NCBI RefSeq assembly: GCF_000499845.2
Contig: NC_023759.2
Coordinates: 48,706,172 to 48,770,171, forward strand
Length of the DNA: 64,000 nucleotides
DNA from: Phaseolus vulgaris
Lineage: Eukaryota > Streptophyta > Magnoliopsida > Fabales > Fabaceae
Reading direction: 5' to 3'
The notes under the pieces were generated by a model, which saw only the letters and a program-made list of their open reading frames with translations, was not told where the DNA came from and made no database searches. Of the stretch, positions 24,136-37,526 are shown piece by piece. Each line of letters opens with the position of its first letter. The stretch's first letter is position 1. The position numbers and the translations under genes were made by a program.

Positions 24136-24219
24136 TTTAACAGTTTTTTGACCATGATGGGGTTATTTTTTTGTTTTTACCAAAATGGGGTCCGTTTAAA
24201 AAAAATTACAAATTTAGAC

Positions 24220-24954
24220 AAGTCGTGCCTAATTGGGACGATTTCATATGCAGAAGTTGTACCAATTAGGCACGACTTCTGTCATGTCATACAGAAGTCG
24301 TGCCAACTTGGCACGACTTCTGCCACGTTGTGTCACGTCTTCCCATAAATAATTTACTTCTAGTTCAACTTTATAGTTTTATTTTATATATTGTAATGAA
24401 TCTTACTAATTTGTTTAGTTCTAATTAATCTCTTCTCATCATTATGTGTTCTGTAAAATCATTACTTCTCATGCTATTTATTTTGCAAATTCACAATAAT
24501 AATTCTCTATTTATTTTCCAAATACAATAAATTTTCATTTATGTATTTATTTCTAAATTCAATAACAATTTTCTTCATTTTTTAATTAATCAAATAATCA
24601 AGTTATTGTATTACATTACCGTTAAACATGATCCATACACGATTATCCAATTTTTTGTTCCTTAAAACTAACACTCTTAGAAAATTATGTATGAAATTAA
24701 TTTTTAACATTACATAACTTACTACCCAATATATAAACAATAAAATTAAAAAAAAAAATTATGATGTGGCAGAAGTCGTGCCAAGTTGGCACAACTTCAA
24801 TATGACGGGGCAAAAGTCGTGCCAAGTTGGCATGACTTCAGTATGACAGGGCAAAAGTCGTGCCAACTTGGTACGACTTTAGTATGACATGGCAGAAGTC
24901 GTGCCTAATTGGTACGACTTCTACATATGAAGTCGTCCCAATTAGGTACGACTT
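24220..24954. repeat. Eight palindromic GTCGTGCC...GGCACGAC units with 41-bp period
   Basis: Units of the form AGAAGTCGTGCC-(4-6 nt)-GGCACGACTTC occur at about 24220, 24252, 24293, 24771, 24812, 24853, 24894 and 24929. Starts 24252/24293 and 24771/24812/24853/24894 are exactly 41 bp apart. Each unit is itself a roughly 26-28-bp palindrome; centres alternate among CCAACTTGG, CCAAGTTGG and CCTAATTGG. Together they form the arms of the fold-back element. Confidence 0.9.
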
Positions 24955-24988
24955 GCCTAAATTTGTAATTTTTTTTAAATGGATCCCG

Positions 24989-25109
24989 TGTTGGAGATCC
25001 CACATCGACTAGAGATTAGAGCCTTTCATTGTATATAAGTGGGTGCAAACCTCAACCTCATGAGCCGGTTTTATGGGGTTGAGTTAGGCTTAAAGTCCAC
25101 TTCGTAATA
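24989..25109 (+). repeat. 5' LTR (121 bp) of the chimeric element
   Basis: Begins TGTTGGAGATCC and ends GTAATA immediately before the primer-binding site. Its last part (CTCATGAGCCGG... to the end) is repeated at 26926-26984 as the truncated 3' LTR. 121 bp is very short for Ty1/copia and in the range of TRIM elements, which suggests a TRIM-like or partner-dependent family. Confidence 0.85.
24997..25039 (+). promoter_or_regulatory. snRNA-type promoter motif (USE + TATA) inside the LTR
   Basis: ATCCCACATCG at 24997-25007 is a perfect match to the plant snRNA upstream sequence element (consensus RTCCCACATCG). It is followed after 24 bp by TATATAAG (25032-25039). In plant U6/U3-type (Pol III) genes these two elements are about 23-26 bp apart, versus about 33-36 bp in Pol II snRNA genes. 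That the LTR is transcribed from here is inference. The truncated 3' LTR lacks both motifs. Confidence 0.6.
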
Positions 25110-25121
25110 TGGTATCAGAGC
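25110..25121 (+). other. Primer-binding site for initiator methionine tRNA
   Basis: TGGTATCAGAGC directly abuts the 5' LTR. This 12-mer is the standard plant LTR-element primer-binding site, complementary to the 3' end of tRNA-iMet. Confidence 0.9.
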
Positions 25122-25418
25122 ACAACACTTCTCATCATAAACCTGGTTGGAGTTGTTGCAGGTATCTCCTATGCCATCAACAGTGGCTACCAATCATGGG
25201 GTCCCCTCTTTGGTAAGCTCTTCTTTGCATTTTGGGTGATCATTCATCTCTATCCCTTCCTCAAAGGTCTCATGGGACGCCAGAACAGAACACCAACCAT
25301 TGTGGTGGTCTGGTCCATTCTTCTTGCCTCCATTTTCTCTCTGTTGTGGGTCAGAATCGACCCTTTTACCACCAAAGTCAGTGGTCCTGATGTTGAGCAG
25401 TGTGGAATCAACTGCTAG
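25122..25418 (+). pseudogene. Captured C-terminal fragment of cellulose synthase (CesA)
   Basis: The 98 codons from 25122 to the TAG at 25416-25418 are uninterrupted and read as the extreme C-terminus of a plant CesA catalytic subunit: [55 protein letters not shown] and the terminal [11 protein letters not shown]. In intact CesA (plasma-membrane UDP-glucose:cellulose glucosyltransferase, about 1,000 residues) this part holds the last transmembrane helices. The catalytic D/DxD/QxxRW regions are absent, so it is not an enzyme. The CesA reading starts at the first base after the primer-binding site. No start codon belongs to it, and an in-frame stop at 25080-25082 precedes it. It contains no intron. 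Capture through reverse transcription of a read-through or template-switched mRNA is inferred. Confidence 0.9.
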
Positions 25419-25506
25419 AGAAACCAAACAACTTTGTCACACACCAGTGTCAACCAACAACATAAGCCTGGTGGGAATGTTGTGACTAGGCTCATGTTGT
25501 GATTGT

Positions 25507-26938
25507 CTTCCAAATGGCCAAACTGTTTATGCCACATATTCTGGTTTAGTACGATTTTCTGATCAGTTTTATTTGTCTGAAGTGTTATACGTGCCTCATT
25601 TTCAATTAAACTTAATATTTGTTTCTAAACTCACACACCAACTTAAATGCACTTTAACTTTCACTTCAACCCACTGCATTATACAAGACAATCTCACTCA
25701 AGAGAGGATTGGTACAGTTAAAGCCACCGCTGGCTTGTACCTTGTCACTACCTTGCCTGCTTCTAGTAATTCTAAACCGCATTGTTTTGCTCCTTTTATT
25801 AATTGTAATATCACAGACAAAGCACTATGGCATTATAGACTAGGACACCCTTCACATGAAAGATTACATGTCTTAAGCAAACAATACTCTTTTATTACTG
25901 TTGATATTCATCATGTATGTGACACTTGTAGTCGTGCAAAACAGAGAAAATTTCCTTTCACTTTAAGTAATACTGTTACCTCTGCTATTTTTGATCTTGT
26001 ACACTTTGATATTTGGAGACCATGTTCCATAATTTCTATGCAAGGTTTTCGTTATTTCTTGACTATTGTTGATGATTACTCGCGTTATACTTGGGTTATT
26101 CTGCTGCATAACAAATCTGAAGTGCGTCAACACATCATTAACTTCACTGTTTTCGTTCAAAATCATTTCAAAACTAATATCAAAACGATTCGTACTGACA
26201 ATGGTGTTGAGTTTGCTATGTCAAATTTTTATGCTTCAAAGGGAATTATACATCAAAAATCTTGTGTTGAAACACCACAACAAAAATGGCATTGTAGAAC
26301 GTAAACATCAACACATACTAAATGTAACCCGGGCTTTACTTTTTCAAGCAAATCTTCCTCCTATTTTTTGGGAATTTGCTGTAAATCATGTTGTTTTCTT
26401 AATAAATGTTATTCCTACTCCATTACTTGATAACATCACTCCTCATGAAAAGTTGTTTGGAAAACCATATGACATTTCCTTTCTAAAAGTGTTTGGTTGT
26501 CTCTGTTATGCAAGTACCATTACTGCACATAGGAAAAAATTAGATGATAGATCTATCAAATGTATTTTTCTTGGCTTTCCGCAAAATACAAAAGGTTATA
26601 TTATCTTAAATTTAAAGTTTCATAGCATAGAGATATCAAGACATGTAATCTTTCATGAAAATCACTTTCCATATAAATTGGACAGTGGCTTGCCTAAGGA
26701 CCCTAACACTTTATCTCTCCCTATTTCTAATGCATATAATTCTGCTTTTGATTTTTTTTCTGATACTGCACCTCCTGTCGAGCCATGTGCCTCTACTCCT
26801 GCACCCAATATTGTTCCTCCACCAGCCTCATTATCCTATGATCTTCCAACAAATAGTGTCTCTGCTCCTGCATCCAACATTGCACCTCCATCAGAATTAT
26901 CACCGCCTGCATCTCCAGGAAGCATCTCACCTCATTGA
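25507..26938 (+). pseudogene. Ty1/copia pol remnant: pre-integrase region and integrase, frameshifted
   Basis: From about 25507 the frame reads the end of the protease/linker region (LPNGQTVYATYSG, EVLYVPHFQLNL). It continues through the GAG-pre-integrase zinc-binding segment (LWHYRLGHPSH...CDTC) and the integrase core with first Asp (LVHFDIW) and second Asp (RTDNG). Within a five-A run at 26282-26286 the reading shifts by one base relative to the downstream half. The catalytic Glu region (VERKHQHIL), the integrase C-terminal part (FLKVFGCLCYAS, KCIFLGFP) and a Pro/Ser-rich linker follow in the other frame up to TGA 26936-26938. Reverse transcriptase and RNase H are missing. The product cannot be functional; it is a marker of Ty1/copia ancestry. 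Confidence 0.9.
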
Positions 26939-26984
26939 GCTGGTTTTATGGGGTTGAGTTAGGCTTAAAGTCCACTTTGTAATA
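26926..26984 (+). repeat. Truncated 3' LTR of the chimeric element
   Basis: About 59 bp matching the 3' half of the 5' LTR (GAGC(C/T)GGTTTTATGGGG through GTAATA). The first half, with the USE and TATA box, is deleted together with the polypurine tract and the end of pol. The breakpoint lies at a CTCA/CCTCAT stretch shared by both sides. Confidence 0.85.
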
Positions 26985-27045
26985 TCCCGTTTTGGTAAAA
27001 ACCAAAAAAAATAACCTCATCATGGTAAAAAAACCTTTTTAACCG

Positions 27046-28229: not shown

Positions 28230-28880
28230 CATATAAATCAAGGGATTCAGAAATCAATCAGAAAAATAAAAACAAGCAAAATGGATTTTAGAGGTTACCC
28301 AGGACTAGATCTTTAGTTGAGTCAAGGAGAAGATTTCAGAATGATCAATCACTCCACCTTTAAAGATGTGTTTATTCCTATGTCTCCAAATCTTATCACC
28401 ACAGTCCAGACTTTCCAAAATTAAATTAACAGAAGTAGGTGTTTAATGTATATTAAACTGCAGGAAATGTGAGACAAAAGTGTGATGAAGAGCTGAACTC
28501 AACCCTAACCACTCGAAGTAAAGGTTCCAAACTAGCAAAATAATTCTATAACCAAAGAACAAATGACTTGTTATTTTCTCATTTGCCCGACATAGATAAC
28601 ATAAAATACTTTCTAATTCAACCTCACATCTCTCCAAGTTGATCTTAGTAGCTAACTTATTTTCCAACACCCTCTAAGCAGTAACATGAACTGAGGGCAA
28701 AACATTTATCATCCAGAAATAATTATACAACCGCTTAACTTCCCCTTCTTCCTCTCCCCTTAAGAAATTGTAGGCAGAACTAACAAAATACTCAATAGAA
28801 TCGCTATCATTCCAAACCTCTTTATCCTTATTTTTCAGGATGAGACTCAAATCATGCACCTTTTCAAGAAGCTAATTTCT
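28230..28880 (-). mobile_element. LINE ORF2 C-terminal fragment (zf-RVT domain), inverted segment
   Basis: The minus-strand reading matches the reverse-transcriptase-associated zinc-binding region of plant non-LTR retrotransposons: SSAYNFLRGEEEGEVKRLYNYFW, LPSVHVTA, LENKLATK, a CxxC pair (CYLC) and the LVWNLYFEWLG tail. An in-frame TAG at 28674-28676 stands where the family normally has tryptophan. Further stops follow in the tail (down to about 28230, WRHRNK-type motif). It is a dead fragment. Directly to its right a LINE 3' end lies in the opposite orientation, which suggests both belong to one 5'-inverted insertion. Confidence 0.75.
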
Positions 28881-29605: not shown

Positions 29606-31614
29606 ATACTTGAAATACACCATAAAGGGTTAAAACTAAAACTGTTATAAGTACTTTAATTCATTATCACCTATAACTTAATCCAGAGAAATTACAGTAA
29701 AAAAAAAAGTCGATGAGGCAATTCAACTTGCTACAAAAATTAAGTTTATATGATTTAAAATAATTCTAACTCGAATCCAACTCCGGGAAATAAATCAAAC
29801 CAATGAATTGAGTTATTCTATGATCTGAAATTTGAACTGAAAACACACATTTTATACATATTTGAATTTGGACACATAAATTTTATTATTAAAGATTATT
29901 TGTAGTTTTAGAAAAACTCAAGTGGACATATTGGTAATGTGATTGAACTTGTCTTTGCAACATTGAAGGTAGCTTCATTATAGCCAAGGATGTATCAAAT
30001 CAAACTTGTTCTAAGTGGCCAAGAACTCTCCTGTCTAATTGCCTTTTATGTATTATTGTTACTACATGAATGGATAGGGTATCAAAATGACCTAGATCTC
30101 TCAATCAATGGATTCAAGTTGCATTAGGTTCAAATTGAATGTAACTCACCTATTTTTTTATTATAATTTTTTATTATTTCTAAGTATATGTAGGTTGATA
30201 TTTTGGTTTTTTAATATTAGAATGTTCTTCAATAATATTTGAATGATTTTAATGTTTAATTAATTTATTTACACAATTATATAAGTTAACATGTTATTAG
30301 ATGTTTTTTGTAAGTAACTTGTAATAGTCAATGAATTTTATTTGTTCAAGTTGAATTTAAATATATAACTTATTTTGCTTTTCTATATAACTTATTTTTA
30401 TCATATGTTATGGCTCATGAGACTTGTAAATAAAGTTTAAATTTTATTTTTACAAATTTATACATATATAACTTTTTTTTTACTAATATTACCTTGTATA
30501 TTATACTATTATATTAAAAAATAAAGTTATAAGATTTTTAAAATTAGTTTGACTTCCATTAACCCTTTGTAACTAAAATCTATATTTTTATTCAATGACC
30601 AGTTTGATTCTAACCAGCTTATTTTTAAAAACAACATCCACAATAAAAGGAAAGAGGAACTCCCTTTTATCAAATGGTAAAAGGGACCTAACATTTATAT
30701 AGTCATCTCATAATACTTATTACCTTATTTATTCTTTTATTATAAATAAAAATATAATTCAAAGGGTATAATTCTTTTTTATTTTTTAATTAGATATATT
30801 CTTTTAAAATAATCTCATTTGGAAACATATTTCATACATTACTCTCATAACTAGTAAAAAAATTATCATTCAAATATTAAACTAGTCTTCCATCTTATTT
30901 TTAAATTCAAATATATTTTTTTTTTATCTTTACCTATAAATTAGATTTTCATATTGTTAAAATAATTTAAAATGTGTAATATTTTAAATATTGTGCATCG
31001 AAAATATAATTTATATATTAAACAATTTTTATTATGAATTTTAATAATAGATTTCTTATTTCCAAAATCTTATTTGTGATCATTTTAATTATATATAATA
31101 TACATACTAAAATATAGTGATAATAACTATGGCCAAGTTGATGTATAAATTTTGTGGGCAATTTCTAAACGTGAATGTGACCTTATCTTCACCTTTCACG
31201 ATCCTTCAATTATGAGGGACCCTATAATGCACTTTTTATATGTTTTCTCAATTTTCATCATTTTCTATGGTAATTCATGCTCCTCTCATGGAATATGTTC
31301 ATGGAATGAGGAAGAATCTGAGACAGGTTTCAGAATCATAGCACCATAAAGATTGATGTAGACATATATATAGAATTTGGTCCTATATACTTATTGCCTC
31401 ATGATCGTTAAAGTATGGATAATCAATAAAATATTAAGAAAAAAAAGTCATAACTTTGTTTTATTATTATTTTGGTGAACAAAAAATCAGTATAAACATT
31501 TTTTTTTATGCAATATAAATGTAAAAAATCATATATTCAAAGTACAAAATGCTTTATAAAAAAACACGTTTTTGTGACTAGTATTTATAATGATATTAAA
31601 TCTATCACAAACTA
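29606..31614. other. AT-rich intergenic DNA
   Basis: No recognisable gene, RNA or mobile element. Only short low-complexity frames are present; the 65-codon frame at 31152-31349 has no known relatives. Confidence 0.5.
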
Positions 31615-31813
31615 AATGTAACACTATTTTTCAATATATCGTTTCTATTAATTTATAAAAATTAATAATATATATATATATATTAATTAGATCAATATTC
31701 AATAAGGTTTACAACATTGATATAAGTGTTAGGTTTTGTTAGATGCAATTATTTCATCTAACTTAATGTAACACTATTTTTCAATATATCGTTTCTATTA
31801 ATTTATAAAAATT

Positions 31814-31851
<38 letters not shown>

Positions 31852-32083
31852 TAGATCAATATTCAATAAGGTTTACAACATTGATATAAGTGTTAGGTTT
31901 TGTTAGATACAATTATTTCATCTAACTTAATGTAACACTATTTTTCAATATATCGTTTCTATTAATTTATAAAAATTAATAATATATATATATATATATA
32001 TTAATTAGATCAATATTCAATAAGGTTTACAATATTGATATAAGTGTTAGGTTTTGTTAAATGCAATTATTTCATCTAACTTA
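31615..32083. repeat. Three tandem ~150-bp repeats with an internal (TA)n tract
   Basis: Units 31615-31764, 31765-31928 and 31929-32083 share 'aatgtaacactatttttcaa', 'tattaattagatcaatattc' and 'aagtgttaggttttgtta'. They differ almost only in the length of the central TA run (shortest in unit 1, longest in unit 2) and a few substitutions, for example gatgc/gatac/aatgc near the end. Recent amplification by unequal exchange or slippage is inferred. Confidence 0.93.
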
Positions 32084-33818
32084 ATACATGAAGAAATCTT
32101 GTATTATAGTATTGTTTGATAAATTTTTATTTGGTTAGACAATACGTATAATTTATTATAATTTGTTTTATAAGTTTTCACATGGATAGACGATAAAAAT
32201 ATCTCATGTATTAATTTTGAAATTACATTTGAAGATAGAGTTTTTTAAAATACTTTGTCCAATATTACACACGTGTCTATCAAAAAGTCATTTTATAAGT
32301 AAAATGTCATATTATCTTTACTATATATTTTATTTCATACATTTTATAAGTTTTATCCACAATTATAAATATTTACATATATTCATTCATATATATTTAT
32401 TGTACTATTAATATTACAACTTGATTACATGTTTTTATAAGAAGATTAATCAAGTGGTTTATTGTATAATGGGTTCAAGTAAGTGGTGATTCCAAGAATC
32501 GTGAAAATAATTGTAATATATAGGATCCATTATTGATATAGTAGTTGTTCATTGTCTCACAATATTAGAAGTAATGAACTTGTCCCTTAAAGGGAAGTTA
32601 TCTACAAATAATTTACAAGATTTGACATTGTTTCATTTCTTTCAATTTTAACTCTAATTTTGTAATTTGATTTCAAACGAAATGAAAGTTTAGGTGGGTA
32701 GTTTGTAAAAGATGTGTATATCTGATCAAAGGATAAATCCTCTAAATAAAATATATAAAAAAATTGTAAATTACTCTTGAAAGTTCGCTAATGAAGGAGA
32801 AGAAGAAAAATATAATTAAACTTATCATTTGCATTAAACTCGTCATCATGACTAAAGGTAAACAAATCCTTCTAGTTCAAATTGTGATAAAACTAGCATA
32901 AGTTTGTCCTTCAGAGTTTGTGAGATAAGTGTGTCAAACGAAGTCTTTAGTTTGTTAAGTTTGTCAAACGAAACTTCTTAGACAAAGAGTGTCCACTAAA
33001 GCTTTGCATATTGCCTAACATGTATTATTAGCTTAAATTCAAAAGGTATATAATAAAATATTCAAATTATTTAATAATAATGTGATTTAAAACATTGTAA
33101 GATAAGATATTGCTTTATAATTTTTGAATGTTAGATATAACATAACTATTGAAATGAATATCTTTAAAACAAACAAGTGAACTTGTTTAAAGCAAGATCA
33201 TTCTAACTTAAGATCATGGTCACTTTAAGCCATCAAATTTCAAAGACACAATTGTGTTTGGGCTTAAGCTAGGCATCTTAAAGTTATTGATTTTTTTATT
33301 TTTTTTTAGAACTTTCATAAATTGTGTTTAACAAACAAATGTTTAAACAAATTAATTGTTCATAATTTTGCTTAAAAATAGTTTTATATGTGAAAGATAA
33401 GGTGTGAGTAAGCGATAAATTTATTAATTAAAGAAAAATAATAATTTTATACTTAAATTTTTGTAATATTAATTTTAGAATGTGATGTGTGATTATTATT
33501 TATTTGAATTTGTTACATGTATTAAATGTGTTAAATATTTTTTCAAAGGCGTGACTAAAACAAAATATAAAAAATATCCATAAAATGTAATTAGTTTTGA
33601 AGTTTTGATTTTAATTCATTACAAGAATATATATACAATTCAAAAAATTGTATAACAAAATTATATTGTCAATCAAAATTAAAAGAAAAAATTAGAAATA
33701 AAAACTAAATTTGAATGTTAAACATCTATAACAAAATAATAAAAAAACAAAAATAAATAACATTAGGACATAATTGTAACTAATTGATTACTGAACAAAG
33801 AAAGAAAAGAATTTTATT

Positions 33819-37086: not shown

Positions 37087-37094
37087 TATAAATA
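37087..37094 (+). promoter_or_regulatory. TATA box of the RTFL gene
   Basis: TATAAATA, about 170 bp upstream of the ATG, followed by a pyrimidine-rich leader as is typical for plant genes. It would place transcription start near 37115-37125, just before the (CACT) repeat. Confidence 0.65.
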
Positions 37095-37126
37095 TTCACC
37101 CTCTCTCCCTTCTTCTCTTCTCCCTT

Positions 37127-37170
37127 CACTCACTCACTCACTCACTCACTCACTCACTCACTCACTCACT
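37127..37170 (+). repeat. (CACT)11 microsatellite in the RTFL 5' leader
   Basis: Eleven perfect CACT units lie between the TATA box and the start codon, so they are probably transcribed as part of the 5' UTR. A CT-rich stretch follows up to the ATG. Confidence 0.9.
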
Positions 37171-37259
37171 CCTCACTCATTCAACTCTCACTAAACTCAT
37201 CTTCCCACCCACTCATTCAAGTCAACAATTTCCTTCTCTTCTCTTCTCTTCTCTCCACC

Positions 37260-37526
37260 ATGGCTTCTTCCACTTCTGCATCCCCATGTAGTGCAACCAC
37301 CACCACCACTTTGTACTTCAATACTCCTGAGAACTGTAAGGTCTCAAAGAAAGAAGGTTCTTCTACCTCCACCACTTCCCCTCTCATCAACAATTCCTCC
37401 ACTCAGAGGAAGTGTGCTTTTGCTAGAAAGTGTGCAAGGTTGGTCAAAGAACAAAGGGCTCGTTTCTACATCATGAGACGCTGTGTCATAATGCTCATAT
37501 GCTGGCATGAGTACAGTGATTCATGA
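37260..37526 (+). CDS. DVL/ROTUNDIFOLIA-like small polypeptide
   Basis: Encodes 88 residues in a single exon. Residues 1-50 are Ser/Thr-rich and poorly structured. Residues 51-88 form the RTF domain that defines the DEVIL/ROTUNDIFOLIA FOUR-LIKE family ([38 protein letters not shown]). These plant-specific peptides associate with the plasma membrane and restrict polar cell proliferation; overexpression in Arabidopsis shortens leaves and organs. The ATG follows a TATA box, a (CACT)11 leader and a CT-rich stretch ending CTCTCCACCATGG, a good plant start context. TGA follows the conserved C-terminus directly. Family and length fit well; the exact RTFL/DVL paralogue cannot be named from the conserved tail alone. 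The 3' region (37527 to about 38000) is probably UTR. Confidence 0.93.

Follow-up and report, generated by a model that had tools for sequence, protein, structure and literature searches.

A Ty1/copia-derived LTR element in Phaseolus vulgaris carries the 3′ end of a cellulose synthase gene directly behind its primer-binding site

Capture of host genes by LTR elements is already known. The maize element Bs1 contains transduced pieces of cellular genes (PMC13317346, PMC5408686), which derive from three genes and form a chimeric gene that is both transcribed and translated (PMC13317346). On a genome scale, 672 LTR-captured genes have been counted in rice and 1,343 in sorghum (PMC3726574), and 30 terminal-repeat elements of the short TRIM type, belonging to seven subfamilies, carry gene fragments in soybean and Medicago (PMC4717578); to call such capture uncommon, as was done in the original prediction for the locus described here, is therefore too strong. 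Two other systems concern the LTRs themselves. For tobacco Tnt1 there is experimental evidence that minus-strand strong-stop DNA is transferred between co-packaged RNAs and that chimeric LTRs arise (PMC2923131). For HIV-1 proviruses with an intact 5′ LTR and a deleted 3′ LTR, it has been proposed that the deletion takes place in minus-strand synthesis and that the 5′ end comes from the plus-strand strong-stop DNA of the other RNA (PMC9278108).

We analysed 64,000 nucleotides of P. vulgaris DNA (the window, C1:48706172-48770171), in which an inserted LTR element holds a fragment of the cellulose synthase gene CesA whose donor lies on C5, that is, a host-gene capture of the Bs1 kind. It is a young and well-preserved further example of the process; unusual in it are the joint exactly at the primer-binding site (PBS) and the mismatched, truncated 3′ LTR. 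Whereas Bs1 joins pieces of three genes into an expressed chimera (PMC13317346), the bean element is a broken copy with one near-unchanged piece of 393 bp. Like the gene-carrying TRIMs of soybean and Medicago, it is found in a legume, is flanked by 5-bp duplications and has host exon and untranslated sequence between its LTRs; unlike what the survey describes for those elements, it retains part of pol, its 3′ LTR is truncated and mismatched, and a single copy was found (PMC4717578). The LTR and PBS module of the window element also occurs in TRIM-sized copies in the bean genome. Our literature search, itself a weak test of absence, returned no earlier report of an LTR-CesA chimera. The features of the locus, numbered by position in the window, are as follows.

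24180 to 24994 and on from 26990, no strand: older inverted-repeat element (arms 24180-24324 and 24850-24994), with the retroelement in its right arm
24984 to 24988, + strand: target-site duplication TCCCG, left copy, identical to 26985-26989
24989 to 25109, + strand: complete 5′ LTR, 121 bp, A-type, TCAACCTCATGAGCC, at 100% identity with the L011 LTR on C11
25110 to 25121, + strand: primer-binding site, 12 nt, the same 12 nt following the LTR in relatives with differing interiors
25121 to 25513, + strand: captured CesA 3′ end (98 codons, stop at 25416-25418, 95 nt of 3′ flank), 392/393 to the donor L002/L009
25505 to 26934, + strand: Ty1/copia pol remnant (gag-pre-integrase, integrase core, SH3-like) with a frameshift near 26282, identified by Pfam and by relatives
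26926 to 26984, + strand: truncated 3′ LTR, last 59 bp, B-type, CTCACCTCATTGAGC, 58/59 to the B-type LTR of L060
26985 to 26989, + strand: target-site duplication TCCCG, right copy, identical to 24984-24988

The 98 codons are the translation of 25122-25415 and, as originally predicted, represent the C-terminus of a plant cellulose synthase that ends with its stop codon. The frame matches the Pfam family Cellulose_synt (PF03552, E 5e-44) at positions 629-720 of the 722 in the profile, and also six distinct solved chains, of which the best is the CesA chain 8vht_A (E 1.3e-60), with an alignment that reaches the last residue. A protein database search with the frame gave 100 of 106 candidates at E ≤ 0.001, and all of these carry PF03552. 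The search for a donor in the same genome (537.7 Mb, 467 contigs), which the original prediction had called for, led to a CesA gene on C5 (L002/L009) that is identical to window positions 25121-25513 at 392 of 393 bases, without gaps; the match takes in all 98 codons, their stop codon and a further 95 bases 3′ of it. The second-best paralogue, on C11, shows 90.9% identity over 298 bases. The donor-matching bases past the stop are probably 3′ UTR. A 3′ UTR had been placed at 25419-25500, and this segment does match the 3′ flank of the donor, but the end of the match lies further on, at 25504-25513; the last 9 nt of the CesA piece, 25505-25513, are also common to some relatives of the element.

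Within the donor, the captured piece lies in sense orientation in the last exon and the 3′ flank. It begins 287 bp into that exon, the last intron ending 287 bp upstream (intron end read by eye from the AG), and its coding part is wholly single-exon. Intron loss would be the mark of an mRNA template in LTR-mediated retroposition. The bean fragment could not have held an intron, and the lack of one, which had been offered as evidence for capture, is for that reason uninformative on RNA versus DNA. A six-frame search of the genome for CesA matches, in which all 33 candidates were scored, yielded 22 matches, namely the window and 21 others. Each of the 21 lies in an open frame of at least 201 aa, as CesA and CesA-like genes would. 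Among the 22 matches, where repeat counts are lower bounds, there was no second CesA-bearing copy of the element; the chimera is thus represented by a single copy, with no sign of spread by retrotransposition.

The host unit is a Ty1/copia derivative of 1,996 bp (24989-26984), and its 121-bp 5′ LTR, 12-nt PBS and 5-bp duplication TCCCG are all as first described. We assign the PBS at 25110-25121 to initiator tRNA-Met, whose 3′ end it would match. The 5′ LTR has TATATAA at its position 44 and is 98-99% identical to other top-scored copies (best 40 of 2461 candidates scored). In these respects the unit has the features of an LTR retrotransposon, with a 3′ LTR that is partial. The LTR is TRIM-like in its length of 121 bp, but a TRIM combines short terminal repeats with the absence of any coding domain, and pol domains are there. 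In the pol remnant, PF13976, PF00665 and PF25597 score above the Pfam cut-off and Pol_BBD below it; no reverse transcriptase (RT) or RNase H domain was found in it with the Pfam profiles. Rfam and tRNA scans of the window gave no matches, and among viral contigs 26 pattern matches gave no confirmed relative.

The landing site is the older inverted-repeat element, the long arms of which hold short repeats around GTCGTGCC. These arms are 145 nt long and 90% complementary, and the right arm resumes past the insertion. When the flanks are joined with one copy of TCCCG, they align without gaps to the opposite arm. The restored arm is gapless, and therefore both ends of the element came from a single insertion event. 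With this and with the donor on C5, the proposal that an LTR element had captured a host gene holds.

We then compared the joints base by base with the donor and with four relatives that share pol with the element. At the CesA/pol joint, the 9 nt GTCTTCCAA (25505-25513) are common to the donor and to three of the four relatives (L041, L042 and L045); L077, whose pol is the most similar of the four, departs from this 9-mer by a single base. For pairs of positions drawn at random, one from the donor locus and one from the body of the element, the chance of at least 9 shared nt is 8.15e-5 (2,000,000 trials), a figure that applies to the CesA/pol joint. At the pol/3′ LTR joint, the 9 nt CTCACCTCA (26926-26934) are common to the B-type LTR of L060 and to pol in two of the four relatives, L041 and L045, with one mismatch in L042 and two in L077. 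The overlaps are thus real for some relatives; their true length would vary with the actual parent and would be shorter for one resembling L077. The PBS/CesA joint has an overlap of 1 nt only. It coincides precisely with the PBS end, the point at which TRIM interiors and several copia interiors start elsewhere. Short shared sequence at the switch points between element and mRNA is likewise described for LTR-mediated retroposition by template switching (PMC5408686, PMC9674220).

The two LTR ends differ in kind. Normal reverse transcription produces identical LTRs, and here one insertion has a complete A-type LTR at its 5′ end and a B-type tail at its 3′ end. Typing was based on a motif in 119 full copies (87 distinct), comprising 70 A-type copies, 27 B-type copies and 22 of neither type. 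Among these 119, the best match to the 3′ remnant is the B-type copy in L060, at 58 of 59 positions; A-type copies score at most 50 versus 57 for the best B-type copy, and the means are 51.7 for B-type and 47.0 for A-type, in a comparison that spans 59 bp and a sample of 119 copies from a much larger family. Since the LTR ends of a single insertion are of differing subfamilies, they point to a transfer between co-packaged RNAs; the 3′ LTR could also have been trimmed by a later deletion and its type altered by gene conversion. The breakpoint in the 3′ LTR may lie anywhere across LTR positions 63-71. We discarded a reading that placed the beginning of the remnant precisely at the transcription start (R) and left one base over, as the second LTR subfamily explains that base.

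The donor, the junctions, the overlaps with some relatives, the mismatched LTR ends and the single insertion are observed, and the account that we favour, at a probability of about 0.7, is that one aberrant reverse transcription with several co-packaged RNAs, including the CesA mRNA from C5, gave rise to the chimera, which was then inserted. We infer the packaging, the order of the switches and the source of the 5′ end as follows. Element RNAs of at least two LTR subfamilies, and with them the CesA mRNA, would have entered the virus-like particle of a Ty1/copia element whose LTRs are 121 bp long. Minus-strand synthesis would have passed from a B-type LTR end to pol, skipping RT, RNase H, the polypurine tract and U3, after which the growing strand would have switched from pol to the CesA 3′ UTR and copied ca. 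390 nt of the CesA mRNA towards its 5′ end. The CesA cDNA would then have been joined, at the PBS boundary, to an A-type U3-R-U5-PBS end, probably plus-strand strong-stop DNA made off another template. Since such a product would keep U3 intact at one terminus and U5 at the other, as integrase requires, it could have been inserted by that enzyme, with formation of the 5-bp duplication. An mRNA template is not proven, because the fragment crosses no intron and has no poly(A).

A fuller version, in which one accident drew on at least three RNA templates (from strong-stop R-U5 to pol to CesA mRNA, with the plus-strand strong-stop DNA of the other subfamily joined at the PBS end), is tentative, and we would sooner expect it to fail in some part than to hold throughout. 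If it is true, the entry of host sequences at the PBS end of plant LTR elements would be predictable. The HIV-1 proviruses with asymmetric LTRs share with the bean element the intact 5′ LTR and the deleted 3′ LTR; there, however, strong-stop DNA anneals to the PBS of the other copy, whereas in bean it would have to join the CesA cDNA, and the cited portion of the HIV-1 account makes no mention of a piece of host mRNA such as the CesA carried here (PMC9278108). Of the two routes first put forward, template switching or read-through, switching is the likeliest and read-through (3′ transduction) is rejected: CesA is internal, between the PBS and pol, and the home locus of the donor is on another chromosome.

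Short-overlap joints are also typical of microhomology-guided repair of DNA. The strongest competitor is post-insertion repair, by which a normal element would have suffered breaks, one of them filled by microhomology-guided copying of CesA from C5, while a separate deletion removed the part from RT to U3. That no intron is crossed, that no poly(A) is seen, that the element is a degenerate single copy and that one joint overlaps by 1 nt only would all suit this explanation, as would the short overlaps at the other joints. However, the CesA filler, the 3′ deletion and the altered LTR subfamily at one end would each call for an event of their own, and repair would have to put the CesA joint precisely where the PBS ends, with a filler in sense orientation from within the 3′ end of a gene. 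We regard it as unlikely, though a serious contender. Considerably less probable is an RNA-level capture in an earlier, fuller parent element, of which the window copy would be a later, deleted daughter. The 3′ truncation could indeed be a step of its own, and in the part of the TRIM survey that covers elements with gene fragments all had at least two copies except GmaRetroS1 and GmaRetroS28 (PMC4717578); against such a parent, each of the 21 further genomic matches falls in an open frame as noted above, with every one of the 33 candidates scored, and a single change over 393 bp allows little time. An assembly artefact, a CesA read misjoined to an LTR element, would fit the single copy, but it is hardly credible: false joints would be needed at both CesA ends, the copy differs from the donor by one base, and there is no N anywhere in the window.

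The family that shares the LTR-PBS module is very large, with 2461 first-look candidates (40 of them scored). In the fetched loci, which are biased to the best matches, a loose pattern picked out 67 distinct LTR ends followed by a PBS-like stretch: 51 continue into a TRIM interior (≤5 errors), 6 into a copia leader, 1 into CesA (the window) and 9 into other sequence, some of the last (for example L030 and L051) being LTR ends that run into flank with no true PBS. Over window positions 25505-26934, and with pol compared among the fetched loci only, identity is 98.3% to L077, 97.2% to L041, 97.1% to L042 and 96.7% to L045; the direct parent may be none of them. The distance in L041 between the PBS end and the point where this homology starts is 716 bp, and CesA occupies that place in the window. 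The pol frameshift near 26282 is in the window and not in L041, L042 or L045; it is private to the window copy and therefore cannot order the capture against the loss of pol. The earlier suggestion that the capture might be younger than that loss, drawn from the intact CesA frame, falls accordingly; frameshift and capture could stem from one replication cycle.

Several of the fetched loci have structures of their own. L045 (C4:47717600-47725900) looks like a composite copia element in which 121-bp LTRs of the TRIM type enclose a longer LTR, and L041 (C11:45488100-45496500) like a composite in permuted order, with the longer LTR outside and the 121-bp LTRs inside; the same copia leader is found behind the longer LTR in L030. 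These structures suggest that LTR-PBS modules have been exchanged at the PBS in this genome, which would fit the proposed route. At 1393-1500 of L025, a 108-bp piece of pol, 99% identical to the window pol, stands directly 5′ of a 121-bp LTR. L031 contains at 1501-1812 (C5:34252408 on) a TRIM copy with the duplication GGAAG and a 3′ LTR of about the last 50 bp; it had seemed to favour the discarded placement of the remnant at R, but its joint is ambiguous by eye.

The sole difference from the donor, at 25381, is derived in the window copy, as the donor and the C11 paralogue agree in the alternative base; it replaces Thr by Ser. At rates of 1.3e-8 and 8.46e-9 substitutions per site and year, a single change over 393 bp translates into an age of about 0.20-0.30 Myr, with limits of 5 kyr and 1.7 Myr, and gene conversion with the donor would make the captured piece appear too young. 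The only in-frame ATG, at 25272, would give a longest product of 48 aa. With transcription starting near LTR position 72, five ATGs come before it, and a protein from the CesA piece is thus unlikely. From its sequence, the piece is expected to be inert.

In old captures the joints are blurred. Here a comparison at single-base level can take in the donor, several relatives and both joints, which makes the locus a clear test case for the pick-up of host mRNA by plant LTR elements. It suggests that host sequence be looked for immediately after the PBS, and likewise 3′ LTRs whose subfamily is not that of the 5′ LTR. In Plutella, partial copies of PxyMasc that are thought to be LTR-captured give small RNAs against their parent (PMC9674220); by analogy, small RNAs against CesA might in principle arise from the near-perfect 393-bp copy of its end that this repeat contains.

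Elsewhere in the window, an open frame at 37092-37526 (+ strand) ends in a small peptide of the DVL family (PF08137, E 1e-10), and a zf-RVT-like fragment (reverse transcriptase zinc-binding region, PF13966, E 1.7e-4, below the curated cut-off) is present at 28443-28673 (− strand). At 31518-32149, a 164-nt unit is repeated four times in tandem, with 62-99% identity to the reference copy.
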